Source: Nocardia iowensis (GTDB lineage: Bacteria; Actinomycetota; Actinomycetes; Mycobacteriales; Mycobacteriaceae). Taken from it: a stretch of DNA of 64,000 nt. The stretch covers positions 4,960,001 through 5,024,000 of the forward strand of contig NZ_CP078145.1 of the NCBI RefSeq assembly GCF_019222765.1, in the 5' to 3' direction. Shown here one piece after another: positions 3,056 through 60,448 of this stretch; positions within the stretch are counted from its first letter, which is position 1, and each line of letters starts with the position of its first letter. The notes beneath the pieces are model-generated. The model ran no database searches. It worked only from the letters and a program-made list of their open reading frames with translations, and was not told where the DNA came from. The position numbers were made by a program, and so were the translations under genes.

Positions 3056-3065
3056 CGGCTACCCG

Positions 3066-5946: not shown

Positions 5947-6074
5947 TTTCTTTCTTCCTACTAGATGAGTCTTTTGGAACAGTTCGCTATCGAGAAGTTG
6001 TGTGTTAACGCGCAGGCAGGAGGCAAATAAAATTGTTGTTCGAGCCTCTTGTGTCGAGGGAGGTGCGCGGCGTA
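5947..6074. promoter_or_regulatory. Gap between P450 and LmbU-like gene
   Basis: This 128-bp spacer is noticeably less GC-rich near its left end than the flanking genes. It carries the ribosome-binding site AGGAAG for the LmbU-like gene. It is long enough for an internal promoter serving the regulator and the genes after it, but no clear -10/-35 pair was recognised. Confidence 0.35.
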
Positions 6075-19143: not shown

Positions 19144-19165
19144 GCCCAAAGTGCCTACTTTGGGC
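19144..19165 (-). terminator. Hairpin spanning the stop codon of the giant NRPS
   Basis: GCCCAAAG (19144-19151) and CTTTGGGC (19158-19165) form a perfect 8-bp stem. The six-base loop contains the TAG stop codon (19155-19157) of the 6975-aa NRPS. It is a candidate terminator without a T-run. Confidence 0.45.
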
Positions 19166-22100
19166 TCGGGAACGCCGAATTCAAGAGGTTGTTGAGCATT
19201 TGGCCGACGAGCTGCATGTTTTCTGGGCGGTCGAAGTCTCCGTGGGCGCAGTTCACCTCGAGTACTTTTATGTGGCCGCTGATGTGAGGGCGCCAGGCTT
19301 GTTCGAGCTCGTTTTCGACATCGGCTGTTCGGTTGCCTTCCGCGTCCACGGTGGCGCCGAAGATTGTCATATCGCCGTCGAAGAATGGCGAGGTGTAGCC
19401 TTCCCACAGTTTGCAGTTGTTGACGAGGACTTTTGTCAGGCGCTCCACCAGTTCCTGGATGACGGGAGCGTCGAGCTGATCTTGGAATCGGTCTACTGCC
19501 CAGGCTCGGACGCCGGCCATAGCCTCGTCGTCCGTTACGTCGGAATCGGCGGCCGACCCCTCCGGCGGTTTGCTGTCTATGGCGCCGAGGAATCCGACTT
19601 CCATTCCCCGACACGACATTTCGGCCGCCATCGCGTGCGCGACTACTCCGCCATACGACCAGCCCAGCAGATAGTAGGGGCCCTCGCCCTGGAGCGACTG
19701 GATCCTGTCGATGTAGTCCGCCACCATCTCCGCCATGGAACCGGCCGTCGGCCCGCCGTCCAGCCCACGGGACTGAATGGCATACACCGGCCGGTCGGGC
19801 AGGTGCTTGCCGAGTTGCTGGTAGAACCAGCCGAGACCACCGCCGGGATGCAGGCACCACAACGGTTTCCGCGAACCAGATTCCTTCAGCACCAGAACTG
19901 GATCGAAATCCGTACCCACGGCGCCACCTTCGTCGAGCCGGGCCGCCAATTGGGCGACGGTGGGGGCGTCGAATATCACCCGGACCGGGACATCGACCCC
20001 AACCACGGCCCGGATCCGGCTGGTGAGGCGGGTGGCCAGCAGCGAATGCCCACCCAACGCGAAGAAGTCGTCTTCGATACCCACCCGGTCGAGTCCGAGG
20101 ATTTCGGCGAACAACTCCGTCAACACCCGCTCCCGCTCAGTGCGCGGGGCACGATATTCCTTGGCAGACAACAATTCCGGGTCCGGCAACGCGCTACGAT
20201 CAAGTTTTCCATTAGCCGTCAACGGCAGGCTGTCGATGACCATCACTGTCGCGGGCACCATGAAATCCGGCAACCGCTCACCCACCCACCGGCGGACGTC
20301 AGCAGCCAGCAAGCTCGCCTGAGGATCGTTGGCATACACCGCCAGATCCGCCACGAATGATGGAGCGAGGTACACATCGGTCAGCGGGCGGTGCTTCGCC
20401 GTCACGGTGTCGAGGAAAACCGCATCCATGCGGCCCGCCTCCGCGGACCAGGTAACGGCAGTGGTGTATCCGCAGTCCTCACCCACCACATGCAGGTCCT
20501 CCGGCAACACACCCACCCGCTCGGCGACCGTGCCGAGTACTCCTTCGAAACCGACCCCGAGCGCGTCGGTGGCGGTGCCGGGCAGCCCCGCCCGGATCCG
20601 ATCGGTGGCCTCGACTTCGCCGATCAACCCGGCATGCGGAATGCCGGTGACCCGAATACCGCCACCGTGCCGGGCCCACAGCAGGCTACGCAACCGGTCG
20701 AGGTCGACGAATTCGACCTCCGGGAGATCGGCCACCGACAGGGATTTCGTCGGAGTCTTGTGCAGGACAACGTCATAGCGATACCGGGTCAACTCGTTGA
20801 CCGAGAATCCCCGCTTGAGCTGAATATCGACGGCATCGAACCCGTTCACCTCACGGCACACACCGGAGAAGTACTCCGGCGCCAGCAGCAATTCCTGCTC
20901 GGCGGCGATATCCCGACGCACCCGATCGCCGACCGCCGCCGGATCCGCATCCCCGTTGCGTGCGATCTGTACAGCGGTCGTGAACTCCTCGAGCAGGCCC
21001 AGGTTGCGGATATCGCCGAGGAACACCGCACCACCGGGCGCCAGAAGCGCCGAGACCTGCTCGAGGACACGACGCAGATACCCTTCGCCCGGAAAATACT
21101 GGACCACCGAGTTCAACACCACGGTGTCGAAGTAGTTTTCCGGCAATCCGGCGGTGTCGTCGGCGCCGCGCACGCTCATCACCACGCGGTCGACCCAGTC
21201 CTCGTCCAGCTCGTCCAACCGTTGCCGCAGCGTGGCAATGGTCGCGGCCGAGAAGTCCGTCGCCCAATACTCGGCGCATGCCGGGGCCACCTGCGACAGC
21301 AACAAACCCGATCCGACGCCGATCTCCAGCACGCGCCGCGGCCGCAGCCCGCGAATCCGCTCGACCGTGGCCGACCGCCATTCCCGCATCTGCTCCAGCG
21401 GAATCGCGGACCCGGTGTAGCTGCTGTTCCAGCCACCGAAGTCCGCGCCGAACGGCATCCGGTCGGTGTCGCTACCCGGGCCGCCGTCGGCCGCCGCGGG
21501 CGCGGAATACAGGTCGTCATAGACTCGGCGCCACTGCCCGACCAGCTCGTCTTCGCCCACGGCCGGTCCGGAGCGGTCGGCCACCACGTACCCGATCAGC
21601 TGCTTGCCGCCGGTATCGGTGTCACGCGCGACAACAACCGCCTGAGATACCGACGGATGTTGCGCCAGTATGGTTTCGACCTCGCCGGGCTCAACCCGGA
21701 AACCACGGATCTTGACCTGATCATCAACCCGGCCGACGAACTCCAGCGCTCCCGTCGAGGTCCACCGCACCACGTCCCCGGTGCGATACAACCGACCACC
21801 GGCCGGATCGAATGGATCGGCCACGAACCGTGTCGCAGTCAGCCCCGCCCGCCCCCGATAGCCCCTCGCCAACTGGGCACCAGCGATATACAACTCACCC
21901 GGGACCCCGACCGGAACTGGAAGCATCCCCGAATCCAGGACGAACGCCCGCATATTGACCAGTGGACGCCCGATCGGCACCGATCCTTCTGATTCCGCAA
22001 CAGCCGCGAAAGTCGTTGCGAACACCGTGGTCTCGGTCGGACCGTAGCCATTGACCACTTCGACATCGGCAGACACGGCCAGCACTCGACGAGCCAATGC

Positions 22101-24290
22101 CGAGGAGAGTTCGGCGCCACCGGCGATCACCTGAACCAAGCCATGTAAAGCATTGCCGGGCAACGCTTCGGCGCGCTCCAGCAATACCGACAACAGTGCC
22201 GGGGTCGCGAACATCCTGGTCACCGATCGAGTTTCGACCAGCTCGAGCATTTCGCCCGGATCCGAACGCAACTCACTCGCCAACACCAATCCACCGCCGA
22301 CGCACAACGCCGCCCACATCTCATAGGTCGAAGCGTCGAAGGCCATCGACGAATGGACCAGCACCCGTTCGTCCGGTCCGGTCAACCATCCCTGCGACAC
22401 GTGATTGACCACATTACGGTGCGTGATACCAACACCTTTGGGGACACCGGTCGAGCCGGAGGTGTAGATCACATACGCAAGGTTCTGCGGCCGCACCACA
22501 ACCCGATCGAGGTCGACCAGAGCTGGCCCATCAATGGTCTCGGGTGCGTCCAAATACAGGCGCGGGGTGGATGTATCGGGCAATGCGTCGGCGATGCCAC
22601 GGTCGGTGACGACAACGACCGGCGCGGCATCGGCGAGGATGAACGCCAACCGATCGGACGGATACGCCGGATCGATCGGCAAATATCCACCACCGGCTTT
22701 CAACACCGCAAGCAACGCCACGATCAATTCCACCGACCGAGGTACCGCGACCGCGACAATGCTGTCCGGATCCACCCCGCGCGAAAGCAGCACCCGCGCA
22801 ACATGATCGGCGCGTCGGTCGAGTTCCCGATACGATACCGCGGCTTCCGCGCAGACCACCGCGACCGCATCCGGCGTTCGAGCGACCTGCGCCTCGAACA
22901 ACCCCACGAGGGTGCGGTCCTGGTCGATCTCGACCGTGGTGTCGTTCCACCGATGCAACACCAACTCACGCTCGGCACTGTCGAGCACGTCGATCGACCG
23001 CACCGAGATACCCGGATCAGCGACGACCGACCGCAATACGTGCACGAACCGTGCCGCGATCGCCTCGACCGTCGGCCGATCGAACAACTCGGTCGCGTAC
23101 TCGATGAGCCCATTCCACGGCAGCCCCGCGGGGGTATCGGCGATATTGAAGAACAGGTCGAACCGCGAGGCGGCGAGGGAGGCGTTGTAGGGCTCGAACC
23201 CGACGCCCGGCAACGCCAAATTGGCCAGGCTGTTGTTCTGGAACGCCAACGTCACCTGGAACAGCGCATGGTGCGCTGCCGAGCGGGTCGGGTTGAGCAA
23301 CTCGACCAGCAACTCGAACGGCGCGTCCTGATTCTCGTAGGCGGCCAGCGCTTTCGCCCTGACCTGACAGAGGATTTCGGTGAACGCCGCCGCCGGGGAC
23401 AGCCTCGTCCGCAGCACCCAGGTATTGACGAAGAAGCCGACCAGGTCGGACAACGCCTCATCGGTGCGACCCGCGATCGGCGAACCGAGCGGAATATCCT
23501 CTCCAGCACCCAGTTTGAACAACAGCACGGCCAGGGCCGACTGCAACACCATCGACACCGTGGCGCCCTCACGAGCCGCCAGCCGCTCGACACCGATCCG
23601 CGTTGCCACGTCGATGTCGAACAGCACCATGTCGCCGCGATAGCTGGCCACCCGCGGGCGCGGCCGGTCGGTCGGCAACCGCAACTGCTCCGGCAGATCC
23701 TCGAGTTCATGACGCCAGTAGTCGAACTGCCGCGACAGCAGGCTGTCGGGATCCTCCGGCGAACCCAGCAGTTCCCGCTGCCACAGCGTGTAATCGACGT
23801 ACTGCACCGGCAACGGCTCCCACACCGGTGTCCGATCCGCCAGACGTGCCGCGTACGCCACCGAAAGATCCCGCAGCAGCGGTGCCATCGACCACCCGTC
23901 ACCGGCGATGTGGTGGATCAGCAACACCACGACACAGTCGTCCGCGCCGGAACGCACCACCGTGACCCGGAGCGGGATCTGGCTGGACAGGTCGAACCCG
24001 TAGCGCACGGCCCCGGCCACCGCCGCGTCCACCTCGGCGGGGTCCGCGTCGGTGACGACCACGGGCGCTTCGACGGAGCCCGCGTCGAGCACCTGCTGGG
24101 CGGGCATGCCGTCGGCCTCAACGAAGACAGTGCGCAGACTCTCGTGCCGCGCGATCACATCACCGATCGCCGCGCGCAACACCGGCACAGCCAACCCCCG
24201 CATCCGCACCGCGACCGGAATGTTGTAGGTCGCCGACGGTCCTTCCAACCGGTGGATGAACCACAACCGGCGCTGGGCGTACGACGTCGG
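19155..24290 (-). other. NRPS module 9: C-A(nMT)-PCP-TE
   Basis: An L-accepting C domain (HHIAGDG) and an A domain with FDASTYEMW; specificity residues read DAYFIGGVFK by eye, identical to module 7. An N-methyltransferase ([28 protein letters not shown], about 21530-20300) interrupts the A domain between A8 and A9. A GGHSLLA carrier and the thioesterase (about 19900-19155) follow. Confidence 0.85.
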
Positions 24291-27200
24291 AACGACGTCC
24301 GGCCTCGATCGGGCCAGTAGCGCGGGACGCACCTGCGCATCGGCATCGAGCCGAGTCGCCAACTGCGCCACCGTCGGAGCATCGAAAACCGCCCGGATCG
24401 GGACCTCGACCCCGAGCATCGCCCGGATCCGGCTGGCCAGACGCGTGGCCAGCAACGAATGGCCACCCAACTCGAAGAAGTTGTCGTCGATACCCACCCG
24501 GTCGCGACCGAGCACCTCGCCGAACAACTCGGCCAGCACCCGTTCGTCCTCGCCGCGCGGCGCGCGGTATTCCGCTGACGAGGTGAACTCCGGCGTCGGC
24601 AGCGCCTTGCGATCCAGTTTTCCGCTCACGGTCAACGGCACCGTGTCGATCACCAGGACCGCCGCGGGCACCATGTACTCGGGCAACAACTCCGCGGCGA
24701 ATCGGCGCACCTGTCCCGCATCGATCGCCTCGGCGCCCGTTCGGTCGGGCACCACATAGCCGACCAGCTGTTTGCCGCCGGTCTCGGTGTGGTGCGCCAC
24801 CACGACGGCCCGGGATACCGAAGGATGCTGGGCCAGCACGCTTTCGACCTCGCCGGGTTCGATCCGGAAGCCACGGATCTTGACCTGATCGTCGACCCGG
24901 CCGAGGAACTCCAACTGCCCGGAGCTGTTCCAGCGCACCACGTCCCCGGTGCGGTACAACCGTCCCCCACCCACCGGATCGAAGGGGTCGGCCACGAACC
25001 GGGCCGCGGTCATCCCCGGGCGACCGTAGTACCCGCGCGCCGTCTGGGTACCGGCCACATACAACTCACCGGCAACCCCTACCGGAGTCGGCGCCAACCA
25101 TGAATCCAGCACGAACGCGCGCACATTGGTCAAAGGACGCCCGATCGGCACCGAGCCGTTCCCCGCCGAGGTCGGTTCGGCCACGCACACCGTCGCGAAA
25201 ACCGTTGCCTCCGTGGGCCCGTAGCCGTTGACGACTTCGACATCGGGAGCAACGGCCCGCAACCGGCGCGCCAGCGCCGCGGACACCTCGGCGCCACCGA
25301 CCACCGCCTGAGCCACTGTGCGAAAGGTGTTGCCAGGCAATGCCTCAACCAGATCGAGCAGCACCGGCAAGAGCCCAGGCGTCGAGAACATTCGGGTCAC
25401 CGCCCGCGACTCGATCAGCTCGACCATTTCGGCGGGATCCGAACGCAGCTCACTGGTCAATACGAGCGCATGACCACCGCCCAGCGTCGACCAGATCTCG
25501 TAGGTCGAGACATCGAACGACACCGAGGTGTGCATCAGCACGCGGTCGCTTGGACCCGTCGACCACTGCTGGCAAACGAGATTCGCCACGTTATCGTGCG
25601 TGATCGCAACGCCTTTGGGCACACCGGTCGAGCCGGAGGTGTAAATCAGGTACGCCAGATTCTGCGGCCCGACTCCGCTTCGACTGATTCGGCCCGCTAC
25701 CTCGACTGTTTCGAGTGTGTCGAGGTAAAGGAGGGGTGTTGTCATATCGGGCAGGATGCTCGCGGTTGCGTGATCGGTCACGACTACGACCGGGGCCGCG
25801 TCAGAAAGGATGAACGCCAACCGATCCGACGGATAGGCCGGGTCGATCGGCAAATACGCACCACCTGCCTTGAGCACCGCCACCAACGTCACGATCAACT
25901 CCGCGGACCGGGGCACCGCCACCGCGACAATGCGGTCCGGCCCCACACCACGCGAAATCAGCAGCTGCGCAAGGTGCTCGGCGTGACCGTCGAGCTCCCG
26001 ATACGACACTTCGGTGTCCGCCTCGATGAGCGCGACGGCGTCCGGCGTCCGGGTTACCTGAGTTTCGAACAATCCCACCAGTGTTCGATCAGCGTGGAAC
26101 GACGCGGCAGTGTCGTTCCACTGACGCAACACCAGTTCGCGTTCGTCGGCGCCCAGCATGTCGATCGAGCGCACCGGCACGTCCGAGTCTGAAACCACCT
26201 GCTGCAGAATGCGGACCAATCGTCCCGCCATCGCCTCGACCGCGCCCCGATCGAACGAATCGGGTCGATATTCGAAGTGCAGCGTCAGGGCGGGCGCGGT
26301 ATTCGCGATGACCGTCAACGGATAGTGAGTCGGCGCGTTCGGGCGCGAGTCGCTGATCGTGATGCCGCTGGTGCTGGTGACCTCCCCGATTCCGGTGTGG
26401 TCGACCGGATAGGACTCGAACGCGATGAGGGTGTCGAACAGGACGTGCAAGCCGACGGCCTGATGGATGTCGCTCAATCCGACGTGGTGATAGTCCAACA
26501 GGGCTGTCTGGCGCGCCTGCAAGTCGATGAGCAGGTCGGTCAGAGTGGCACGGGGGTCGAACCGCACCCGCACCGGCACGGTATTGATGAACAATCCGAC
26601 CATCGAATTCACCCCAGCGATCACCGGAGGGCGTCCCGACACGGTGGCGCCCGCCAGCACATCGTGGCTGCCCGTCGATGCGGCGAGCAGCACTCCCCAC
26701 GCGCCTTGCACGACAGTACTGAGGGTGGTTCCGAGTTCCGTCGACCGCCGGGTCAACTCCATGGCCGTTTCCGGCGGCAGCGGTACCTCGATCCGCTCCA
26801 CCTGGGGCAACTCGGCGCCATCGGCCTTGTCGGCGCCACCCACGCTGTCGGCGAGCAGGGTTGGTTCGCGCACGCCGTCGAGTTCTCGGCACCAGGCCCG
26901 CACGCCCGCCTCGAAGTCCTGCTCCCCCAACCACTTCAAGAATTCCTTGTACTCGAACGCGGGCGGCAGCTCAGCGTCCCCGCCGTACAGACGGAACAGG
27001 TCCACCACCAACAGCGGCAACGACCACCCGTCCAACAACACATGATGAGCCGTCAGTACCAGCTCTGCACGATCCGCACCCACCCGCACCAGCATCAGCC
27101 GCAACAACGGCGGAACCGCCACATCGAAATGAGCGTCCCGATCCTCGGCCAACAACCGCTCCAGCGCCACACCGCGGTCTTCCGCCGCCAGCTCGCCTAA

Positions 27201-30200
27201 ATCCACGACCCGCCAAGGCAGCTCCACCCCTTCCACGACAACCTGCACCGGGTCACCACGACGATCGGCAACAAACCCCACCCGCAAATTCGCGTACCGA
27301 TCCAACAATCGCTGACCGGCGGACCGCATCTGTTCCGCATCCACGCGTCCGACCAGCCCGAACACGATCTGCATGTGGTACGCGTCGAAACCCGACCCCG
27401 CCAATACCTGATGGAACAACAACCCCGACTGCATCGAGGTCAACGGCCACACATCCACCAACCCCGGATACCGCTGCTCCAACACCTCGAGCTCAGCTTG
27501 CCCCACCCCGCTCGACAACACATCCGACGGAGACAAACCACCCCCACCGGCCGACACATGTCCTGCCAACCCCTCGATCGCGTCGCGCCACAGGGTGGCC
27601 AATTCCTGTATCTCGTTCTCGGCCAGCACTTCCACGGGCGCGGCGAATATCGCCTGCAACACCGGTCCCTCGCTGGTGTCGAGCACGATCGTGTTGACAT
27701 CCAGCACCGCCATCGCGGGCATCGGCGCCGACGCCGGATCCACCGGCGTGATCAACTGTCCGGCATCGACCGAGGGGGTCCAGCCCGCGCCGCGCAGTCG
27801 GTGCGGCAACAAATCCGTCGAGGTGAAGCGGCCGAGGTAGTTGAATCCGATCTGTCCGGCCGAATACTGTTGCAGCACTTCGGCGGTCTCGGGATTCAGG
27901 TACCGCAGCATCCCGTAGCCCATGCCCTTCTCCGGTACCGCACGCAGCTGTTCCTTCACCGACTTGACCAGCGCACCCGCGATCGGGCCACCGGCGCACA
28001 GCTCGTCCCACTCCGCTACGGGTGCGGTCAACCGCACCGGGAACATGCTGGTGAACCAGCCGACGGTCGTCGACAAATCGGCACCGGGAACGATGTCTTC
28101 CTGCCGACCGTGGCCCTCCAACCTGATCAACACCGATTGCTCACCGACACCCCTGTGCTCGCGCCAGCGGTTGACGGCTACCGCCAAGGCCGTCAGCAAT
28201 CCGTCCTCGACCCCACCGTGGAACGCCGCGGGCAACGTGGTCAGCAAGATTTCGGTCGTCGGCACCGGTATACGCACCTGCGCGTGACCGAGCTTCGCCA
28301 TGACGTCGACCGCCGGATCCAGCGGCCTGCTGCCGAGTAGCGGATCGGGTCCGTCGAGAACCGAACGCCACCAAGACAACTCGGTCACCCGCTCCGGCCG
28401 GGCCGCTTGCTCGACCAATCCGTGGGCCCACCGCCGCATGGAGGTACCCGTCCTCGGCAGCACCGGTGTCGACCCGGTGGAGACCGCCTGCCACGCGGTT
28501 GCCAAGTCCGGCAACAGAATCCGCCACGACACACCGTCGACCACCAGATGGTGCGCCACCACGGCCAACCAGCCCGCCCGACCGGGACCGGCATCGAGCC
28601 ACACGAACTGCACCATCACCCCTTCCGCGGCAGCCAACCGCCCCACCGCGGCCCCCATCTCCGACACCACCGCCCCGGACATGTCCTCGATCCCCGCCAC
28701 CGACACCCGTGACAACAGCCCGCCCACATCGACCGCACCCACCGGCGCCACCTCGAGCCCCGGCCCGCGCTCGTCATCGACCAATCGGGCCCGCAACACG
28801 TCATGCCGATCGATCACCGCCGACAAGGTCGCCACCAGTCCCGCCCGATCCACGTCCACCGGCAGATCCAGCACCATCGACTGCGTCGAACTGTCGAACC
28901 CGCCGCCCAACTCGCGCACGAACCGAGCCACCGGCAACAACGGCAGCCATCCCACCGCCCCACCGGCCAGCTCCGCCAGCACCGGGCCGGCTACCGCACG
29001 GCCCGCGGCGACGGTCGCCAGCGCCCCCGCTGTCCGACACTCGAACACCTCCCGCGGCGTGACCTCCACCCCCAACTCGCGTGCCCGTGACACCACCTGA
29101 ATCGAACGAATACTGTCCCCGCCCAACTCGAAGAAGCTGTCGTCGAGCCCTACCCGGTCAAGCCCGAGCACCTCGGCGAACACCGTGGTCAGGATCTGCT
29201 CCTCCGCCGAAAGCGGTGCCCGGTACTCGCGCGACGAACTCAGCTCGGGATCGGGCAACGCCTGACGATCCACCTTGCCGTTCGCCGTCAACGGCACCGC
29301 ATCGATCACCATCACCACCGTCGGCACCATGAAATCAGGCAGCCGCTCGGCTACGAACTCCCGAACCAGCCCTCCGTCGAGCACGTGCCCATCCGCTGCC
29401 CGGTCATCCTCGACCGAACCGGCCCGGTCTGCGACTACGTACCCGATCAGCTGCTTGCCCCCGGCATCGGTGTCGCGCGCGACCACCACCGCTCGGGACA
29501 CCGAAGGATGCTGCGCCAGCGCGCTTTCGACCTCGCCCGGCTCGACCCGGAACCCACGGATCTTGACCTGATCGTCGACCCGGCCGACGAACTCCAGCAC
29601 CCCTGCCGCAGTCCACCGCACCACGTCACCGGTGCGATACAACCGGCCACCGGCGGGATCGAAGGGATCGGCCACGAACCGCGCCGAGGTCAACCCCGCG
29701 TTGCCCTGATACCCCCTGGCCAGCTGCGCACCGGCCACATACAACTCACCGGCGACCCCGACCGGCACCGGTCGCAACCACGAATCCAACACAAACGCCC
29801 GCATATTGGCCAACGGCCGGCCGATCGGCGCCGACCCTTCGGAGACCGCATCGGCGGCGAACACCGTCGCGAACACGGTGGTCTCGGTCGGACCGTAGCC
29901 ATTGACCACCGCCGCACCGTCGGCAATCCGCTTGACCCGGCGCACCAACGCCGAGGAGAGTTCGGCGCCACCGGCGATCACCTGGGTAAGACGCTCGAAC
30001 GCGTTGCTGGGCAGCGTTTCCGCATGATCCAGCAACACGGCCAACAGCGCAGGCGTGGCGAACATCCGCGTCACCGAACGAGACGCGACCAGCTCCAGCA
30101 TTTCGGCCGGATCCGAACGCAACTCACTCGCCAACACCAACCCGCCGCCGACGCACAACGCCGCCCACATCTCATAGGTCGAAGCGTCGAAGGCCATCGA

Positions 30201-43000: not shown

Positions 43001-46000
43001 CAACTCCGCCGACCGTGGCAACGCCACCGCGACCAGCGTGTCCGGCCCTACGCCACGCGCGACGAGTGCGCGCGCCAGCCCGTCGGCTCGGATATCGAGT
43101 TCCCGATACGACATTTCGGTGTCGCCGCCGATGACGGCGATCGCCCCTGGTGTCCGGGCGACTTGGGCCTCGAACAGCCCGACCATGGTGATGTCCGGGA
43201 CCGCGACGGCGGTGTCGTTCCATCGACGCAGCACCAACTCGCGTTCGTCGGTGTCGAGGACATCGATCGACCCCACCGGCCCGCCCGGGTCCGACACGAT
43301 CCGGTCCAGTATCCGCACGAACCGGGCAACCATCGCCTCGACCGTCGACCGATCGAACAAGTCGGTCGAATACTCGACGAATCCGCTCCACGGGTCACCG
43401 GCGGGTGCGTCGGCGACATTGAAGAACAGGTCGAACCGCGAAGCCGCGATGGACGCCGGATAGGGCTCGAACCCGACGCCCGGCAGCTGCAGTGTCGGCA
43501 GCGTGTTGTTCTGGAATGCCAATGACACCTGGAACAACGGATGGTGCGCCGCCGAGCGCGCCGGGTTGAGCAACTCGACCAGCAACTCGAACGGAACATC
43601 CTGGTTCTCGTACGCGGCCAACGCCTTCGATCGGACCTGGCCCATGACCTCGGTGAAAGACGTTGCCGGACAGACAGTTGCGCGCAGCACCCAGGTGTTG
43701 ACGAAGAACCCGACCAGATCGGCCAGCGCTTCGTCGGTGCGACCGGCGATCGGTGAGCCGATCGGAATATCTTCTCCGGCACCGAGTTTGAACAACAGCA
43801 CCGCAAGTGCGGACTGCAACACCATCGACACCGTCGCACCCTCACGGGCCGCCAATCGCTCCAGTTCCGTCCTGGTTCGCGCATCGACGCCGAAGACCAC
43901 CATGTCTCCGCGATAGCTGGCCACCCGAGGACGCGGCCGATCGGTCGGCAACCGCAACTGGTCCGGCAACCCGTCGAGTTCACGACGCCAATAGTTGAAC
44001 TGCTGGGACAGCACACTGTCGGGATCGGTCGGTGATCCGAGAAATTCTTGCTGCCACAGCGTGTAGTCCACGTACTGCACCGGCAACGGCGCCCATTCCG
44101 GCGCTCGATGCTCGAGGCGAGCGGCATACGCGCTCGCCAGGTCCCGCAACAGCGGCGCCGCCGACCAGCCGTCGCCCGCGATGTGATGGACCAGCAGCAC
44201 CAGCACGCACTCGTCGGCGCCGGACCGGAATACGTTGGCGCGGATGGGAATCTCCGAGGACAGATCGAACCCGTACCGCACCGCCGCCGTCACCGCCGCG
44301 TCCAGCTCAGTGGGCGCCATCTCGCCGGTTTCCGCCTCGACCGCGACCGGTACCTCGACACTGCCCGCATCGAGCACCTGCTGGGTCGGCACACCATCGG
44401 CTTCGACGAAGATCGTGCGGAGGCTCTCGTGCCGGGCAACTACATCACCGAGTGCGGCCGCGAAGGCCGACGCGTCGAACACGCCACGCAGCCGGACCGG
44501 CAACGGCATGTTGTAGGTCGCCGACGGCCCCTCCAGCCGGTGGATGAACCACAAACGGCGCTGCGCGTACGACACCGGAACCACGTCCGGTCGTGGCCGG
44601 GCGAACAGCGGCGGGCGCACCTGAACATCGGCATCGAGCCGAGTCACCAACTGTGCCACCGTCGGCGCATCGAATATCGTCCTGATCGGCACTTCGACTC
44701 CGGTGACCGCACGAATCCGGCTGGCCAGGCGGGTCGCCAGCAGTGAGTGACCACCCAGCGCGAAGAAACTGTCATCCACGCCGACCCGATCCAGTCCGAG
44801 GATTTCGGCGAACAGTTCGGCCAATACCTGTTCGCGTTCGCTGTCCGGCGCCCGATACTCCGCCGACGAGGCGAACTCCGGATCCGGCAATGCTTTCCGG
44901 TCCAGCTTTCCGCTTGTGGTCAACGGCACCGAGCCGATCACCATCACCGTCGCGGGCACCATGAACTCCGGCAACCGGTCGCCTGCCCACCGGCGCACGT
45001 CGGCGGCCAGCAGACCCGCCTGCGGGTTGTTGGCATACCCGGCCGGGTCGCCCACGGCTGCGGGGGCGGTGTAGACGTCGGTCAGTGGCCTGCCGTCAGC
45101 GGTCGCGGCGTCGACGAAGACGGCCTCCATCCGATCCGGCCGCGCGGACCAGGTGACCGCGGTGGTGTATCCCATTCGCCGGCCAAGCACATACAGGTCC
45201 TCCGGCACGGCACCCGCACGGTCGGCGATCATGTCGAGCGTTCCCTCGAAACCGACGCCGAGTGCGTCGGTAGCGACGCCGGAGTGCCCCGCCCGGATTC
45301 GGTTGGTCGCTTCGATCTCGCCGACCAGCCCGGCGTGCGGGATGCCGGTCACCCGAATGACGTCCGGATGCTGGTCGCGCAGCAGCGCTCGCAACCGATC
45401 ATGGTCGCGGAAAGCGACTTTCGGAGCCTCGGCGACGGACAGCGCGTTCGTCGGAGCCGGGTGCAAGACCACGTCGTATCGATACCGCGTCAACTCGTTC
45501 ATCGAGTATCCGCGTTTGAGTTCGATATCGACGGCACCGAGGTCCAGAACGTCACCCAGCGCGCGGAAGTACTCCGGTGCCAGCAGCAATTCTTGTTCGG
45601 CCGAGATGTCTCGGCGGACCCGTTCACCGACCGCTACCGGATCGTCGCCACCGTTGCGCGCGATCTGCGCCGCGGTGGTGAACTCCTCGAGCAGTGCCAG
45701 ATTCCGGACATCACCGATGAACACCGCCCCGCCGGGAGCCAGCACCCGCAGCACCCGCTCGAGCACCCGACGCAAATAGCTCTGACTCGGGAAGTACTGG
45801 ATCACCGAGTTCAACACCACCGTGTCGAAATAGTGCTCCGGCAACCCCGCGGTGTCGTCGGCGCTCCGCACACTCAGCGAGACACGGTCGACCCACTCGC
45901 CGTTCAGTTCACCCAGCTGTCGCCGCAGTGTGCTGATCGTCGCGGCCGAGAAATCCGTCGCCCGGTATTCCTCGCAGTCCGGTGCCAGGTGCGACATGAT

Positions 46001-49000
46001 CAAGCCCGACCCCACACCGATCTCAAGTACCCGGCGCGGATGCAACGCCCGAATGCGCTCCACGGTGGTCGCGCGCCATTCACGCATCTGCTCCACCGGA
46101 ATCGCGGCCCCGGTATAGCTGCTGTTCCAGCCGCCGAAATCGGTACCGAACGCGACCTCGCCACTGTCGACAGGTCGGGCATACTTTCCATTTCCGTTTC
46201 GGCCGTACAGGTCGTCGTACACCCGCCGCCACTGCCCCACCAACTCGCCTTCCCCGGCGGTCGCCCCGGCGTCGGCGACCACGTACCCGACCAACTGCTT
46301 TCCCGCGTCGGAGTCGTGTGCCACGACCACGGCTTGGGCGACCGAACGATGTTGGGCAAGCACGTTTTCGACCTCGCCCGGCTCGACCCGGAAGCCGCGG
46401 ATCTTGACCTGATCATCGACCCGGCCCGCGAACTCCAGCACGCCCGCCGAAGTCCAGCGCACCACATCACCGGTGCGATACAGCCGACCACCACCGGTCC
46501 GGTCGAACGGGTCGGCGACAAACCGGGCCGCGGTCAGCCCGGCCCGACCGTGATACCCCCGCGCCAGCTGGGCACCGGCCACATACAACTCACCCGAGAC
46601 CCCCACCGGCACCGGCACCAGCCACGAATCCAGCACGAATACCCGCGTATTGGCCACCGGCGCCCCGATGGGCACCACCGCACCCAGCTCACCATCGGGC
46701 ACGCGATAGGCGGTCACATCGACCGTCGCCTCGGTGGGGCCATAGAGATTATCGATCCGCAGATCCTGTCCTATGGCACGCAGCGAACGCACCAAACCGG
46801 AAGCAAGCGTGTCAGCGCCGGTATTCACCTGCCGCAGACTCTGGAAAGGCCTGCCGGGCAACGATTCCGCGTGCTCGACCAATGCCGACAGCAACGGTGG
46901 CGTCGCAAACATCTTCGTCACCGACCACGACCCCACCAACCGGGTGATCTCCACCGGATCCGAGCGCTGCTCGACGGCGATCACCAACGTCGCGCCCCCG
47001 CACAGCGCGGGCCAGATCTCATAGGTCGAGGCATCGAACGCGATCGACGAATGCACCAGCACCCGGTCCTCGACACCCGCCGACCACGCCTGGGCAACCA
47101 GGTTGGCCACGTTATGGTGGGTGATACCAACGCCTTTCGGAACACCGGTGGAGCCGGAGGTGTAGATCACGCACGCCAAATTCTGCGAGCCCACCCCGAC
47201 AACCCGGTCCAGTCCTGCCCGGTCACCCTCCTCGGCGGTGTCGAGCGCTTCCATGGAGTCGAGATAGAGGTGTGGTGTCGTGGTCGGCGGCAGTGCGTGG
47301 GCGGTCGCGGAGTCGGTCACGACGACAATCGGCGCGGCATCGGCGAGGACGAATGCCAACCGATCCGAGGGGTACGCCGGATCCATCGGCAGATACCCGC
47401 CGCCTGCCTTCAACACACCCAGCAATGTCACGATCAGGTTGGTGGACCGGGGCAAGGCCACCGCGACCACACCGTCCGGACCCACGCCGCGCGAGATCAA
47501 GGCCCGCGCCAGCCGATCGGCGCGAATGTCGAGCTCGTGGTAGGTCATCTTCCTGTCCGCGCAGACGACCGCGATCGCGTCCGGGGTCGCAGCTACCTGC
47601 GCGCGAAACAGACCGGTGATGGTGGTGTTGTCCGGTACCTCGACGGTGGTGTCGTTCCACCGGCGCAACACCAGCTCGCGCTCGTCGGCGTCGAGGACAT
47701 CGATCGACCCCACCGGGACATCGGGAGCCGACCCGACCTGCCGCAGCAGGCGCACCAACCGAGCAGCCATCGCCTCGACCGTCGACCGGTCGAACAGCTC
47801 GGTCGCATATTCGACGAATCCGTTCCACGGATCACCGGCGGGGGCTTCCGCGATATTGAAGAACAGGTCGAACCGCGCGGTCGCGGTGGTTGCGGGATAG
47901 GGCTCGATCCGCACTCCGGAAAGCTCGAGGGCGGGCAGGGTGTTGTTCTGAAATGCCAACGTCACCTGGAACAACGGATGATGCGCCGCTGAGCGGGTTG
48001 GGTTGAGCAACTCCACCAGCAACTCGAATGGAACATCCTGATTCTCGTATCCGGCCAACGCCTTTTCCCGGACCACGCCCAGGATCTCGGTGAACGATGC
48101 GTCCGGCACTACGGCCGCCCGGAGCACCCAGGTATTGACGAAGAACCCGACCAGCTCGGTCAACGCCTCGTCGGTCCGACCGGCGATCGGCGCCCCGATC
48201 GGAATGTCCTCCCCTGCACCGAGTTTGAACAGCAACACCGCCAACGCCGACTGCAACACCATCGACACCGTCGCGCCCTCGCGAGCCGCCAAATGTTCTA
48301 CCGCGGTACGGATCTCCGGATCGATACGGAAGAACACCATGTCTCCGCGATAGCTGGCCACCCGCGGCCGGGGCCGATCGGTCGGCAACCGCAACTGCTC
48401 GGGCAGACCGTCGAGCTCATGACGCCAATACTCGAACTGCTGGGACAACACGCTGTCCGGATCGGTCGACGACCCCAGCAACTCGCGCTGCCAGAGCGTG
48501 TAATCCGCGTACTGCACCGGCAGCGGTCGCCACCGCGGTTCGTGACGCTGCCGTCGCGCCGCGTACGCCTCCGACAAGTCTCGCAGCAACGGCGTCAACG
48601 ACCAGCCGTCGCCCGCGATGTGATGGATCAACAACACCAGCACGGACTCGTCGGCGCCCGACCGGAACACGGTGGCGCGGAGGGGAATCTCCGACGACAA
48701 ATCGAATCCATACCGCACCGCGGCGGTCACCGCCGCGTCCAGCTCGGCGGGATCCACGTCGTCGGTGTTCCGTTCGGCCACCACGACCGGCACCTCGACA
48801 CTGTCCGGGTCGAGTACCCGTTGGGACGGCACGCCGTCGGCGTCGACGAAGACCGTCCGCAGACTCTCGTGCCGAGTGACCACGTCCCCGATCGCGGCGG
48901 TCAACGCCGACACATCCACCCCGTGCAACCGCACCGCCAACGCCATGTTGTAGGTGGCCGACGGTCCCTCCAGTCGGTGGATGAACCACAGCCGCTGCTG

Positions 49001-52000
49001 TGCGAACGACAGCGGAACAACATCCGGCCGTGGTCGAGCCAGCAAGGCCGGACGCACCTGGACGCCCGCGTCGAGCCGAGTCGCCAACTGCGCCACCGTC
49101 GGCGCGTCGAACACCGTCCGGATCGGCACCTCGATCCCCAACTCCACCCGAATCCGGCTGGCCAGCCGGGTCGCCAGCAACGAATGGCCGCCCAACTCGA
49201 AGAAGCTGTCGTCCACGCCCACCCGGTCACGTCCGAGGACCGCACCGAACAGCTCGGCCAGCACCCGCTCCCGCGCGCTGCCCGGCGCCCGATACCGGAC
49301 CGAGGACACCGACTCCGGCGCGGGCAACGCCGCGCGATCCAGTTTCCCGTTCGCGGTCAGCGGCACCGAGTCGATCACCATCACGACCGTGGGCACCATG
49401 AACTCCGGCAACCGTTCGGCGGCGAACGCGCGTACGTCCGCGCCAACGAGGTCGATTCGAGCGGGCCCGTTGCCGCCCGATTCGTCTCCTGCCCGGTCGG
49501 CCACGACATAGCCGATCAGCTGCTTGTCGCCGGTGTCGGTGTCGCGCACCACCACCAGCGCCCGCGCGACCGAAGGATGCTGCGCCAGTACCGATTCGAC
49601 CTCGCCGGGCTCGACTCGGAAACCGCGGATCTTGACCTGATCATCGATTCGCCCGAGAAACTCCAACTGCCCGGAGTTGTTCCGACGCACCAGATCACCG
49701 GTGCGATACAGGCGACCACCGCTCGGATCGAAGGGATCGGCGATGAACCGTGCCGCGGTCAGATCCGCCCGGCCGTGATACCCCCGGCCCAACTGCGCAC
49801 CGGCCACATACAACTCGCCCGCCACCCCTACCGGAACCGGCGCCAACCACGAATCCAGCACGAACAACCGCACATTGGCCAACGCGGACCCGATCGGCAC
49901 CACCGCGTCATCGAAGTGTTCCCCGGCCTCGAACGGTCGGCGGATCGCGAATGTCGTTGTCTCGGTGGGCCCGTACACGTGCACGACGCGGGTGTCGGGG
50001 CACAGCCGCAAAGCCCGCCCGAACACCTCGGGCGGCATCTCCTCGCCGCCGACCCACACCTCCCGAAGCCCGGCGAGCGCATCGGGGCGATGGTCGATGA
50101 ACAACTCGAACAACCGGGTGGTGAGGAATACGGCGGTGACGCCATTCGCCACCAATTGCCGACCCAGCACTGCGATATCGGTGCGGCCCGGCGGCGCGAC
50201 AACTACTCGGCCACCGCCCAGCAGCGGCACCCAGATCTCATAGGTGGAGGCATCGAACGCGACCGAAGAATGCACCAGCACGCTGGCGTGCGCACCGTCG
50301 CGCCAACTCGGCTTGGTCGCGAAGGCCACCACGTTGCGGTGCGTGATGGCAACACCTTTCGGGACACCGGTAGAGCCCGAGGTATAGGTCACGTACGCCA
50401 AATTCTGCGGGGCCGCCGCAACGGCCCGATCCGAGGCGGCTTCGTCCACTACGTCGATGGTGTCGAGGTAGAGGCGCGGTGCCGCGGTATCGGGCAGCAG
50501 ATCGGCGGTGGCGGAATCGGTCACGACCACCACCGGTGCGGCGTCGCTTAGGATGAATGCCAACCGATCCGAGGGATACGTCGGATCGATCGGCAGATAC
50601 CCACCACCGGCCTTCGATACCGCCAGCAACGCCACGATCAACTCCACCGATCGTGGCAACGCCACCGCGGCAATGCTGTCCGGGCTCACCCCGCGTGCGA
50701 TCAGGGCGCACGCCAATTCACCTGCGCGCGCGTCGAGTTCCCGATAAGACACTTCGTTGTTGCCGCAGACCACCGCCACCGCATCGGGCGTCCGAGCGAC
50801 CTGCGCTTCGAACAATCCGGCCACGGTGCCGTCCGGGTCCACCGGGACAGCGGTGTTGTTCCACCGGTGCAACACCAGCTCGCGTTCCTCGACATCGAGG
50901 ACATCGACCGACCTCACCACGGTGTCCGGGTCCGACACCACCTGCCGCAGGATCCGCACCAACCGACCTGCCATGGCCTCGACCGTGGCGCGATCGAACA
51001 GATCGGTGGCGTATTCGATGTATCCGTCCCACCCGGCGGCGGAGCCGTTGCGGTTGTTCCGCGCCCCGGACGGGGCGTCGCCGATGTTGAAGGTCAAGTC
51101 GAACCGGGAGGTGTTGGTGGCCGGCATGCAGGGCGCTACCCGCACCCCCGGCAGCCGCAGGGTGGGCAGGGTGTTGTTCTGCAGCGTCAGCAGTACCTGG
51201 AACAGCGGATGGTGCGACGCCGAGCGGGCCGGATTGAGCAACTCGACCAGCAGCTCGAACGGCGCGTCCTGGTTGTCGTACGCCGCCAACGCTTTTGCTC
51301 GAACCGTACCCAGCACCTCGGTGAATGATGCTGCGGGAGAGACAGTTGCGCGCAGCACCCAGGTGTTGACGAAGAACCCGACCAGATCGGCCAGTGCGTC
51401 ATCGGTGCGACCGGCGATCGGTGAGCCGATCGGAATATCGTCTCCGGCACCGAGTTTGCACAACAGCACGGCCAGTGCCGACTGCAACACCATCGACACC
51501 GTCGCACCCTCACGGGCCGCCAGCTGCTCCACTGCGGAACGCACGTCGGGATCGATGCCGAACAACACCACATCGCCGCGGTAGCTGGCCACCCGAGGAC
51601 GCGGCCGGTCGGTCGGCAACCGCAACTGCTCGGGCAGACCGTCGAGTTCGGCGCGCCAGTAACCGAACTGCCGGGACAGCACACTGTCCGGATCGGTCGG
51701 CGAACCCAGCAATTCCTGCTGCCACAGCGTGTAATCCACGTACTGCACCGGCAACGGCGCCCACTGCGGTGCCCGCCCTTCCCGTCGCGCCGCGTACGCG
51801 ATCGACAAGTCCCGCAGCAGCGACGCCGCCGACCAGCCGTCACCGGCGATGTGATGAATCAGTACCAGCAGCATCCACTCATCGGCCGCGCACCGAAACG
51901 CGCTGGCGCGGATCGGGATCTGCGTGGACAGCTCGAACCGATACCGCGCCGCCTCGGCGACTGCCGCGTCCACCGCGGCGGGATCCACGTCGGCGATGGT

Positions 52001-55000
52001 CACCGGCACCTCGACGCTGTCCGCCTCGAGCACATGCTGGGCGGGCACGCCGTCGGTTTCGACGAAGACCGTGCGCAAGCTTTCGTGCCTGGCAACCAGA
52101 TCAGCGACCGCGGCGGTGAACGCCGACGCATCGAACGCACCGGTCAACCGCGCGGCCAGCGGCATGTTGTAGGTGGCCGATGGCCCCTCCAGCCGATGGA
52201 TGAACCACAACCGGCGCTGCGCGAACGACAACGGCACCACGTCCGGCCGCCGCCGGGCCAGCAGCGTCGGACGCATCGTGACACCGGCATCGAGCCGGGT
52301 CACCAACTGCGCCACCGTCGGTGCGTCGAACACCGTCCGGATCGGCACCTCGACTCCCATCACCACCCGAATCCGGCTGATCAGGCGGGTAGCGGACAGC
52401 GAATGCCCACCCAGCTCGAAGAAGCTGTCGTCCGCACCGACCCGGTCGATTCCCAGTACCTCACCGAACAACCCCGCCAGCACCCGTTCTCGCTCGCTGC
52501 CCGGCGCCCGATACGCCATCGAGGAGGTGAACTCCGGATCAGGCAGCGCGGCTCGATCGAGCTTGCCGTTGGGTGTCAATGGCACGCGGTCGATCACCAT
52601 CACCACGGTCGGCACCAGGAATTCCGGCAGGCGCTCCGCGGCGAACCGGCGCACCTGTCCTCCATCGAGCGCGTGCGCACCCGTCCCGCCGTTGCCTTCG
52701 ACCGAGCCGCTTCGATCGGCGACCACGTACCCGATCAGCTGCTTGTCGCCGCCGGTTTCGGTGTCGCGGGCCAGCACCACCGCCTGCGACACCGAAGGAT
52801 GTCGAGCCAGTACCGATTCGACCTCACCCGGCTCCACCCGGAAGCCTCGGATCTTGACCTGGTCGTCTGCCCGGCCGACGAACTCCAGTACCCCCGCCGA
52901 CGTCCAGCGCACCACATCACCGGTGCGATACAACCGGCCGCCGGTCGGATCGAACGGATCCGCCACGAACCGCGCCGCGGTCAACCCCGGTCGACCGTGA
53001 TAGCCCCGCGCCAATTGCGCACCGGCCACATACAGTTCACCGGCCACCCCGATCGGGACCGGCGCCAACGACGAGTCCAACACGAACACCCGCATGTTCC
53101 CCAGCGGCGTCCCGATCGGGCTCTCACCCCGGGCGCCATGTGCTTCCCGCAGGCCCAGCTTCGTCACATGCACCGTGGTTTCGGTGATCCCGTACATATT
53201 CACCAGGGCTGGACCGCCGGTGGCGCCGACCGAGTACCACGGCTGCAGGTGGGCGTGATTCAGCGCTTCGCCACCGAATATCACCATGCGCAGGGCGGAA
53301 TCGATAGTGCCGGACACCGATCGAGCTTCGGCCAACGCGTGGAAAGCCGACGGGGTCTGATTCAGGATCGTCACCCCGTCGCCGACGACGAGATCCCACA
53401 GCTGCGCGGGCGTGCGCACCACGTCCCACGGCACGACGACGACCCGGCCGCCGTGCAGGAGCGCACCCCAGATCTCCCAGACAGAAAAGTCGAACGCTTG
53501 GGAATGACACCAAGCCCAGACATCGTCGGCATCGAATTCGCACCACGGCGCGGTACTCAGGAAAAGCGATGCCACATTGCGGTGGGTGACGGCAACACCC
53601 TTCGGCGTGCCGGTGGAACCGGACGTGTAGATGAGATACGCGAGATTGCCGGGCAGCAGCGCAGCGGGCCGCGCTACTTCATGCCGATCTACGTCGGCCT
53701 CGTCGATCAGGATAAGGGGAACTCTGTTGTGCGGGAGCGTTTTCGAGGTGGCGACGTCGGTGAGGACCGCGATCGGTGCGGCATCGCCGAGGACGAAAGC
53801 CAACCGCTCGGCGGGATATCCCGGATCGATCGGCAGATAAGCACCACCGGCCTTCAACACCGCCAGTATCGCGACAATCAACTCCGCTGACCTCGGCAGT
53901 GCCACCGCCACCACGCTGTCCGGACGCACACCGTGCGAGATCAAGGTCCGCGCGACACGGTCCGCCCAGGTATCGAGCTCCCGATAGGAAAGCTCCGCGG
54001 CACCGGACACCACCGCCACCGAGTCCGGGGCAATGCGCACCCGGTCCTCGAACAACCCCACCAAGGTCGCGGCCGGATCAACCGGCACCGCTGTGTCGTT
54101 CCACGCCTCGACTACCAGCGACCGGTCCGCACCGAGAATGTCGACTGCCCCGATAGGCGCCGCTGGATCGGTTATCGCCTGCTGCAGGTACTGCGCGATC
54201 GATCCGAGATAGCCGCGGAGATCATCTTCGGTGTAGAGCTGCGCGTCGCCCTCGATCCGCAGATATCCACCACGGTCCGACTGCCTTTCATAGTGCAGGA
54301 CGATCGAGAGATCCCCGCTGTTACCCGCCGAGAAGACCTGGAGGTCAGCCTGCCCGCCGGTCATTCGCAAGGCACCGAAGAACGACATGATATTGATGAC
54401 CGGGCCGAACGGGTTCCCCTTGACGGGCGGCATTTTCAGGTCGCGCCGGATCTCCGACATCCCGTATCTGAGGTGATCTCGGGCACCGGCGATGCTGGCC
54501 TGGAGCCGTTCGGCCAGCTGGCCCAGCGACAGGTCCCTGCTCGAATCGACCAGCAGTGGAACGGTATCCGACAGTTGGCACGGCGTTCGCCGCGCGATGG
54601 CCGTTTGATTCGAGACCGGCATCTGCACACAGAATTCATCGCGCAACGAATAGCGCTGGATGGCGGCGGCCGCGACGGACATCAACAGATAGGGCAGCTT
54701 GACCCCGATCGATTGCGCGGAGCTGATCAGCCGACCCAGCTCCGCACCCGAAATGCCATGTGTGCAGCCGATCCGCCCCGGCTTCGCGCCGGGTGCGGCG
54801 TTGCCGGGAAGTCTCAGCGGTTCGATCCCGGGCGGGATCTGCCCGCGCCAGTACTCGCGATCGATCGCCTGCTGGTGACGGCGATACGCGCGATCGCTGT
54901 CGATGATCTCGTCGACCGGCACGAAATCGGCCGGCTCGACGGGTGTTCCGGATGCCAGGGCGCAGTACACATCGAGCACTCGTTGGGCCCAGGTGGCGAC

Positions 55001-55438
55001 ACCGACGCCATCCATGATGATGTGGTGGAAGCACATCGACAGGAAGTACTGTCCCGCACCGACTTTGAGCAGCGCGACGCGCAACAGCGAATCCAGCTCC
55101 AGATCGAAGGCGACCTCGAGTTCTCGGGACATGTAGTCGAAAGCCATCGACGTCGGGGCGGGCTGTTCGGTGAGATCGAGGTAGGCGGGCAGCCAATCCC
55201 GGGTGTCCCGTTCGACCTGCATCGGCCCCTCGGCGCCACGGACGAAATTGACCGTGAGCGCTTCCGACTCGGCGAACACCCGCCGCAACGCGGTGACGAA
55301 ATGACCGAGCTCCAGCTCGGCGTGAATTTCGATATATATCAGACAATTATTGGGAATATCCGAAAGCTCGTGCGCTAACCAGAGTTCTTTCTGAATCGAA
55401 GTCAGACTGCGCAGCAGTGATTTGTTACCGGATTGCAT
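40082..55438 (-). CDS. Giant NRPS, loading and modules 1-4
   Basis: A 5118-aa four-module NRPS: Cstarter-A-PCP, C-A-PCP, C-A(nMT)-PCP, C-A(nMT)-PCP. The first C domain (~10-440) is intact (HHIIMDG) but unlike the other eight, in the style of starter C domains that N-acylate the first residue. A1 carries the exact Thr code DFWNIGMVHK. A2-A4 read DAYFWGVTFK, DAYFVTLVDK and DAYFIGGACK by eye. N-methyltransferases are inserted between A8 and A9 in modules 3 and 4 ([16 protein letters not shown]). The protein ends right after the fourth carrier, so it hands over to the next NRPS in trans. The start at 55438 is supported by GGGAG seven bases upstream and the C-domain beginning there. It faces a divergent SARP gene, the probable activator. 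Confidence 0.96.
40089..40098 (-). promoter_or_regulatory. Ribosome-binding site deciding the start of the second giant NRPS
   Basis: On the minus strand GAGAGGTGGG precedes the ATG at 40082 by six bases and lies inside the end of the upstream gene. With the TGATG overlap it makes 40082, not the further-upstream 40148, the likely start. Confidence 0.7.
40150..44600 (-). other. NRPS module 4: C-A(nMT)-PCP
   Basis: A C domain with HHIAGDG and an A domain with FDATTYEIW and code DAYFIGGACK by eye. The N-methyltransferase (about 41790-40500) follows a Gly/Asn-rich linker with [12 protein letters not shown]. The carrier is GGHSLLA. Confidence 0.83.
44630..49040 (-). other. NRPS module 3: C-A(nMT)-PCP
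   Basis: A C domain with HHIAGDG and an A domain with code DAYFVTLVDK by eye. The N-methyltransferase lies at about 46260-44980 ([17 protein letters not shown]). The carrier is GGHSLLA. Confidence 0.83.
49080..52260 (-). other. NRPS module 2: C-A-PCP
   Basis: A C domain with HHIAGDG and an A domain with [18 protein letters not shown] and [10 protein letters not shown], giving code DAYFWGVTFK by eye, probably an aliphatic residue. The carrier is GGHSLLA. Confidence 0.82.
52290..55438 (-). other. NRPS module 1: starter C-A(Thr)-PCP
   Basis: A divergent starter-type C domain (HHIIMDG) and an A domain with [17 protein letters not shown] and [12 protein letters not shown]. Together these give DFWNIGMVHK, the classic L-Thr code. 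The carrier reads GGHSLSA. It loads and N-acylates Thr. Confidence 0.88.
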
Positions 55439-56010
55439 GACAAACTCCCTCGCTTATCACCTTTGCCGGGCGGTGCCGATCCACTGCTGGCCGAACGAAT
55501 TCGTTTTCGGCGGTGCAGCCGCTCAGCACGCGCATCGCCGGACAGCACCGCCGCGCGCCCTGCTCGCTGTGCTGGCAAAGGTGGGGACACGCGGTGCCCC
55601 CGGTCGACTGCCGCCGCCCCCGTCGACGAATCCGCGCCGGGTCGCTTCATTGACCACCGGCGCGTCACCCTCCCCGAATCCCCGTGGGCGACAACCCTGT
55701 CCGCGGCCCGCGACAGCAGGGCGAAACGGTGACTCAGCTGGTGCGGCGCGTGGTAGAGCCGGGAAGTGGACGCTTGCTCACAACTAGATGAGCCGTTGCT
55801 GACCAGACAGCTCGTCGACTGCCGATGAACTCGTAGCCCCCGAATCATGCTGCCGCACACTCGATCAGGATGTCTCGAGCTGCGTAACTGCCGCTGTACT
55901 AGTGCGTAAATGACTGGTCAAAGTGGTAACTATCCTGCGTTCCTGCGTCGGAAATGTCCGGCGCCACCTATGCTCAGCGCTGGTAGCACATGGTTCAGGA
56001 GGGCTTGTCC
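55439..56010. promoter_or_regulatory. Divergent control region between NRPS genes and SARP
   Basis: 572 bp with no convincing gene; frames open on both strands look like GC-rich chance and lack family matches. It must drive the 36-kb NRPS transcript leftwards and the SARP gene rightwards. A TGGTCA half-site lies at 55915-55920 and a TATGCT -10-like hexamer at 55969-55974, without a good -35. No clear pair of SARP heptamer direct repeats was recognised by eye. Confidence 0.5.
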
Positions 56011-60044: not shown

Positions 60045-60377
60045 CTAACCTTCGGGATAGAAGACGAACAGCGTGCAACCCGTGGTCGTCTGTGGGATGT
60101 GTGAGGAACCTGCGGGGGCATGAATGAAGGACCCGGCGGGATAGTCCCGGTTTCCGTCATTGAAGACGCCGGAGACCACGAAGACCTCCTCGGGGCCCGG
60201 TTCGTGCACGTCGATCCCCTGCCAGCAGGCGTTCGGATCCATCTCGAGGAAATATGCCTTCGCACCGTTGTCGCCGACCCACAGGGAGCGCGAGCGGATG
60301 CCAGGGAAAAGCTCACGAACCGGGGCGTCCTGCACAGCGGACCACACGTAACCGGACATGTTCTGGTCTGTCGTCAT
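60045..60377 (-). CDS. Small single-domain cupin protein
   Basis: A 110-aa single cupin. The first motif lies in DVHEPGPEEVFVVSGVFNDG and the second in YPAGSFIHAPAGSSHIP, with His and Glu positioned as metal ligands. It resembles ChrR-type or dioxygenase-like cupins that bind a metal and a small ligand. The ATG at 60377 has GGGGAGG eight bases upstream. It is divergent from a GlxA-type AraC regulator, with 71 bp between the starts, so it is a likely target of that regulator. No reaction can be assigned. Confidence 0.8.
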   Translation of the reverse strand: MTTDQNMSGYVWSAVQDAPVRELFPGIRSRSLWVGDNGAKAYFLEMDPNACWQGIDVHEPGPEEVFVVSGVFNDGNRDYPAGSFIHAPAGSSHIPQTTTGCTLFVFYPEG

Positions 60378-60448
60378 GGAGTCAGCCTCCCCGACCGGTA
60401 TGCCTCCCGCCGAGTGTCAGAGATGACATCTCGAGGTACTTTTCTGCC

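Follow-up and report, generated by a model that had tools for sequence, protein, structure and literature searches.

Which peptide does the large nonribosomal peptide synthetase (NRPS) locus of Nocardia iowensis assemble, and is this peptide a new one? The locus lies in a stretch of 64,000 nucleotides (hereafter the window), namely positions 4,960,001-5,024,000 of a genome assembled into one contig (8,948,074 bases), and two of its genes, both on the minus strand, encode a line of nine modules. Our results indicate with high confidence, as a statement at the family level, that this is a nocarjamide-type synthetase, making either nocarjamide or a close congener of it; that the product is nocarjamide itself is held with clearly less confidence, as the outcome that we somewhat favour.

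Module order of the synthetase

The features of the synthetase are given below in window coordinates, with condensation (C), starter condensation (Cs), adenylation (A), carrier (T), N-methyltransferase (nMT), epimerisation (E) and thioesterase (TE) domains; the adenylation codes are alignment-based, and all module boundaries are approximate.

40082..55438, minus strand: NRPS gene 1, 5,118 amino acids (aa), modules 1-4 (Cs-A-T, C-A-T, C-A-nMT-T, C-A-nMT-T)
52289..55438, minus strand: module 1, code DFWNIGMVHK (Thr), boundaries from the carrier motif
54131..55408, minus strand: starter condensation domain of module 1, motif HHIIMDG
49064..52288, minus strand: module 2, code DAYFWGVTFK (Val)
44624..49063, minus strand: module 3 with nMT, code DAYFNGLVDK (MeLeu, by comparison with nocarjamide)
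40085..44623, minus strand: module 4 with nMT, code DAYFIGGACK (MePhe, by comparison with nocarjamide)
19155..40082, minus strand: NRPS gene 2, ~6,975 aa, modules 5-9 and thioesterase
36864..40082, minus strand: module 5, code DAYFHGLVDK (Leu, by likeness to module 3, 84% A-core identity)
32229..36863, minus strand: module 6 with E, code DAYIIGSVCK (Phe-type clade; Phe likely)
32550..33590, minus strand: epimerisation domain of module 6, motif HHLAVDG
27549..32228, minus strand: module 7 with E, code DAYFIGGVFK (D-Val)
27879..28910, minus strand: epimerisation domain of module 7, motif HHLVVDG
24339..27548, minus strand: module 8, code DVYFVGGVFK (Ala, by comparison with nocarjamide)
19158..24338, minus strand: module 9 with nMT and thioesterase, code DAYFIGGVFK (MeVal)
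19239..19865, minus strand: type I thioesterase, motif GWSYGG, candidate triad Asp and His spotted by eye
55990..59304, plus strand: AfsR/SARP-type regulator (BTAD, NB-ARC, TPR), divergent from the NRPS genes

An initial annotation of this DNA had described nine modules with a single starter C domain and a single thioesterase, the E domains following modules 6 and 7 and the nMT domains lying in modules 3, 4 and 9, and both Pfam and the order of motifs agree with this description. Indeed, a Pfam scan of the two proteins in four non-overlapping pieces returned 11 Condensation-type stretches (9 C and 2 E), 9 AMP-binding domains, 9 carrier domains, 3 methyltransferase insertions and 1 thioesterase, and Pfam and motifs together arrange them as nine co-linear modules with the thioesterase at the end (for gene 2, by motifs, C-A-T, C-A-T-E, C-A-T-E, C-A-T and C-A-nMT-T-TE), nMT being confined to modules 3, 4 and 9. 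Since the open frames run over 5,118 and ~6,975 codons, a chance origin of the reading frames is not an issue. Gene 1 starts at the ATG at 55438, with GAGGGAG upstream, and its stop overlaps the ATG of gene 2 by one base in the junction TGATG, with AGAGG upstream. This shared base supports the translational coupling of two co-linear genes that had been claimed before, and the same junction means that gene 2, as judged from the sequence, most likely starts at the ATG at 40082 and not at 40148, the start of the longest open reading frame (ORF).

The eleven C and E domains of the window fall into four identity groups. C1 stands alone, with 20-21% identity to the other C domains; C2-C6 and C9 are 70-80% identical within their group; C7 and C8 are 72% identical to each other and 26-31% to the C2-C6/C9 group; and E6 and E7 are 72% identical. 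C7 and C8 are precisely the two domains located downstream of E domains, as would be expected for D-accepting condensation domains.

Nocarjamide and the locus of its producer species

The scaffold predicted from this order, acyl-Thr-X-MeX-MeX-X-D-X-D-X-X-MeX with closure through the Thr1 hydroxyl, was already proposed in the initial annotation; it is supported here and agrees with a published compound. The accessible parts of PMC11364655 describe nocarjamide, from N. tenerifensis IFM 10554T, as 3-methylbutanoyl-Thr-Val-MeLeu-MePhe-Leu-Phe-Val-Ala-MeVal with a MeVal9-O-Thr1 ester, containing D-Phe, one D- and one L-Val and otherwise L residues, with the formula C60H93N9O11 and an observed [M+Na]+ of 1138.6897, and what could be consulted of PMC6713684 gives an account that agrees. 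Nocarjamide and the domain prediction share their length, the acyl-Thr start, the N-methyl groups at positions 3, 4 and 9, D-Phe6 and the ring closure, and the product predicted with 3-methylbutanoyl and Phe6 has the formula C60H93N9O11 and an [M+Na]+ of 1138.6887, to be compared with the 1138.6897 reported. In addition, the E domain after Val module 7 of the window predicts position 7 for the single D-Val of nocarjamide. The statement that no Nocardia peptide matches this domain order was thus wrong, since nocarjamide fits and orthologous genes are present in a genome of its producer species. An unknown new scaffold was dropped as an explanation after nocarjamide turned up in the literature, and the suggestion that the product may be new keeps its value only for a possible congener, with respect to residue 6 and the acyl group. 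Note that no assignment of nocarjamide to genes was found in the open-access literature, as far as its accessible parts go, and that the subscription literature may contain one; no rival product turned up in the open-access listings either.

The evidence from the producer species comes from strain NBRC 101015, which we take to be the same N. tenerifensis type strain as IFM 10554T. Its draft genome (G129) carries the orthologue (L006, on contig C254), with 73% identity in the starter C domain, 74.6% in gene 1 and 76.7% in gene 2 over 5,751 aligned residues. The stretch from methyltransferase to carrier of module 3 has five full-length matches in G129, of which three are in the orthologue and one each in two other NRPS, and no second locus with three such N-methyltransferase domains was seen in this draft. 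The N. tenerifensis codes are DFWNVGMVHK (Thr1), DAYFWGGTFK (Val2), DAYFNGLVNK (Leu3) and DAYFIGGACK (Phe4) for modules 1-4, and DGYFIGGACK (Phe6), DAYFIGGVFK (Val7), DVYFVGGVFK (Ala8) and DAYFIGGVFK (Val9) for modules 6-9, so that they align with nocarjamide as Thr, Val, Leu, Phe, (gap), Phe, Val, Ala, Val; within this species, the codes of modules 7 and 9 are identical and those of modules 4 and 6 are one letter apart. When the two loci are compared, the window codes are identical at modules 4, 7, 8 and 9 and one letter off at modules 1, 2 and 3. The window and the nocarjamide system share the nine-residue acyl-Thr scaffold and the same divergent regulator beside gene 1, whereas the two loci differ in protein sequence (73-77% identity), in the module 6 code and in these single letters. 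Two readings have a source of their own, as DAYFWGVTFK (window module 2) and DFWNVGMVHK are entered as Val and Thr, respectively, in the accessible part of the independent PMC9113097.

On this basis, the starter C domain would load a short acyl group, probably 3-methylbutanoyl from isovaleryl-CoA, onto Thr1, the line would then add Val, MeLeu, MePhe, Leu, D-Phe (or another aromatic residue), D-Val, Ala and MeVal, and the thioesterase would free the chain through attack of the Thr1 hydroxyl, leading to a nine-residue cyclodepsipeptide. The divergent AfsR/SARP-type regulator probably controls the expression.

Orthologues across Nocardia

The best matches of the starter C domain in open searches were from Nocardia, and this domain was used as a probe in a survey of 150 Nocardia genomes (that of N. 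iowensis included). All 150 genomes match somewhere, but 21 of them do so at E <= 4.4e-192 (at least 62% identity), the next match being at 1.0e-90 and 38%. In the 20 other genomes, the starter domain is 62-90% identical and lies in frames of ~5,000 codons; the carriers include N. suismassiliense, N. ninae, N. brasiliensis (two strains), N. vulneris and N. tenerifensis. Nineteen of the 21 loci were read, that is, 17 fetched regions, the N. tenerifensis locus in part and the window (G030 and G146 were left out). All 18 complete loci display 4 + 5 A domains, and the positions of the three nMT and two E motifs align in 19 of 19, with small variants. The tenth code letter, K, is backed by the Lys of an A10 motif in each of the nine modules of the window and of the eight N. 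tenerifensis modules that can be read, and was assumed in the other 17 genomes.

Variation is found in the codes of the last modules. The Val7/Ala8/Val9 set is present in five of the 19 loci (the window, G041, G080, G127 and N. tenerifensis), while the module 7 code is Leu-like in the other 14, ten of which are Leu-like at module 9 as well; congeners are therefore predicted in these 14. For N. vulneris or N. brasiliensis, this would be a Leu7/Val8/MeLeu9 congener with a calculated [M+H]+ of 1172.769. For N. brasiliensis, the accessible part of Komaki et al. 2014 (PMC4035055) lists an NRPS cluster #18 with a predicted nine-residue peptide, the length predicted for the window, and we infer that this cluster is the orthologue that our survey located in this species (G029/L002 and G030/L003). 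Unlike the window, N. brasiliensis G029 has Leu/Val/Leu-type codes at modules 7-9.

According to the accessible text of PMC11364655, nocarjamide, for which activation of Wnt signalling is reported, was produced in co-culture with macrophage-like cells and not in single culture, so a cluster of this kind can be silent, and one could imagine that N. iowensis bypasses one of the modules or carries a dead cluster, giving fewer residues or no product. We regard this as quite improbable, since the window retains intact core motifs in its C, E, nMT, carrier and TE domains, the reading frames of both genes are open in N. iowensis as well as in the relatives that were fetched (gene 2 in 17 of 17 fetched regions), and silent is not dead. 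In G144, a TAG was found inside the matched starter-domain stretch. Note also that N. tenerifensis (L076/L077) displays DHIIMDG as its starter C motif and HHLVIDA as its E6 motif; the product of this species is nevertheless acylated and has D-Phe, and the first His of the starter C motif and the last Gly of the E6 motif may for this reason be dispensable.

Residue 6, the acyl group and the flanking genes

Several points weigh against the identification with nocarjamide, and module 6 is the first of them. Its code in the window (DAYIIGSVCK) differs in four letters from that of N. tenerifensis (DGYFIGGACK), and the ending SVCK is shared with the Trp code DGWAVASVCK, seen in the accessible part of PMC9113097. 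The A core of this module is 71% identical to module 4 of N. tenerifensis and only 67% to its module 6, whereas the other seven of the eight comparable window modules have their own N. tenerifensis counterpart as best match. Moreover, a tree built with 170 A domains of 19 genomes lends no support (0.098) to a direct pairing of the window module 6 with that of N. tenerifensis. Module 5 of N. tenerifensis, for which a code of the DAYF[N/H]GLV[D/N]K type is expected, falls in an assembly gap. The Leu, Ala and Phe codes were read with the help of the nocarjamide match itself, and these readings are to be taken as a calibration and not as independent proof. Elimination of other N. tenerifensis loci is not absolute either, as the draft is gapped and holds two further weak partial methyltransferase matches (C307 and C60). 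Finally, no conserved gene for supply of the starter acyl group was found beside the locus in the 18 regions compared, and the product of N. iowensis is a prediction from its genes.

These observations leave room for a compound that would be new on the same scaffold, that is, a congener with another residue 6 (e.g., Trp or Tyr) and/or another N-acyl group, which forms a sub-case of the nocarjamide-type assignment and which we hold to be possible but the minor prospect. The four-position difference and the Trp-like ending of the module 6 code argue for it, as does the lack of a conserved supply gene fixing the acyl group. However, the tree places the window module 6 with those of G080 and G127 (support 1.0), nested in a Phe-type clade of 31 domains (support 0.862), where 18 of the 19 module 4 domains are also found; its closest A domain within its own synthetase is module 4 (77%), and the codes of four other modules are identical to N. 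tenerifensis. As predicted from these comparisons, residue 6 is likely Phe, with Trp or Tyr as possible alternatives; the calculated [M+H]+ is 1116.707 for nocarjamide, 1155.718 for the Trp6 and 1132.702 for the Tyr6 form.

Concerning the acyl group, the solved chains nearest to C1 are 7c1k/7c1h/7c1p, followed by ObiF1, CDA synthetase I and EntF, all of them distant (best 141 bits). Starter C domains of lipopeptide synthetases (RzmA-Cs, CDA synthetase I) are thus the closest solved relatives, but the likeness is only distant, and the acyl selectivity of the window domain is a prediction. In PMC7804268, as far as accessible, structure 7C1H is named RzmA; RzmA-Cs takes acyl-CoA in vitro, its cluster has no acyl carrier protein (ACP) or acyl ligase gene, and its authors inferred direct use of acyl-CoA without fully excluding acyl-ACP. 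An aryl-acid starter was also considered, since two NCBIfam models, MxcG and EntF, hit the first C-A stretch of gene 1 with scores below their cut-offs. It is not favoured, as starter C chains of the RzmA/ObiF1/CDA type rank ahead of EntF, the flanks show no conserved gene for an aryl acid and nocarjamide has 3-methylbutanoyl.

The flanks were compared in 18 regions (the 17 fetched and the window), with ~8 kb upstream in most and less in G029. The AfsR/SARP-type regulator lies beside the NRPS genes in 12 of the 18 (the window included), and also in N. tenerifensis, and is the only widely conserved neighbour; in G060, G101, G108, G110, G022 and G144, the upstream flank of the NRPS genes, of which ~8 kb was fetched, has no match to the regulator. 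Apart from the regulator locus, no flanking ORF of at least 100 codons is common, at 40% identity, to more than 6 of the 18 regions, and among the other flanking ORFs of the window a single one, which is AraC-type and covers 60254-61435, is matched at this level, in two genomes. The conserved unit is hence the two NRPS genes, usually with the regulator; the acyl starter would have to be supplied from outside this unit, plausibly as isovaleryl-CoA. As a separate observation, the MbtH Pfam model has two matches in the genome, at 700958-701110 and 8107958-8108113, both outside the window.

On the downstream side, the window holds a second synthetase:

10365-17231, minus strand: separate NRPS, 2,288 aa, a partial adenylation domain followed by A-T-C-A-T and a thioester reductase domain

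This two-module NRPS shares the strand of the nine-module line, from which it is 1.9 kb downstream, and the first of its full A domains looks Thr-like by eye; it could hence be thought to work in the same pathway and add residues to a longer product. We consider this hardly credible: each line has a terminal domain of its own, a thioesterase for the nine modules and a thioester reductase for the neighbour, nocarjamide has nine residues, and the genes of this side of the window are without close counterparts beside the orthologues, where only P450s of ~30% identity (two genomes), an SDR match of 31-39% (two) and an unspecific NRPS-to-NRPS match were found. Near this NRPS are genes for a P450 (6075-7463), an LmbU-family regulator (5239-6246) and an AurF-like protein (4232-5242), with which it may form a small cluster of its own; the CoA-transferase family III and thiolase genes that adjoin the AurF-like gene (1835-4235, minus strand) perhaps belong to the same neighbouring cluster. 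Elsewhere in the genome, at ~8,025,000-8,068,000 and outside the window, numerous condensation domains are encoded in a single open frame of 14,602 codons.

Altogether, the product of this type of synthetase is probably already known or a near variant of a known compound, and a search for a 'new' peptide, as the first reading would have it, would have been misdirected. A broader hypothesis, which we put forward only tentatively, is that of a hitherto unrecognised, Nocardia-wide family, whose products would be varied through the A-domain specificities of modules 6-9 while the N-methyl and D positions stay fixed, and whose expression host cells would induce through the AfsR/SARP-type STAND regulator. 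The locus of N. iowensis provides a candidate gene locus for nocarjamide, and the presence of the same synthetase type in 21 of 150 Nocardia genomes, including N. brasiliensis, predicts congeners of this compound within the genus.

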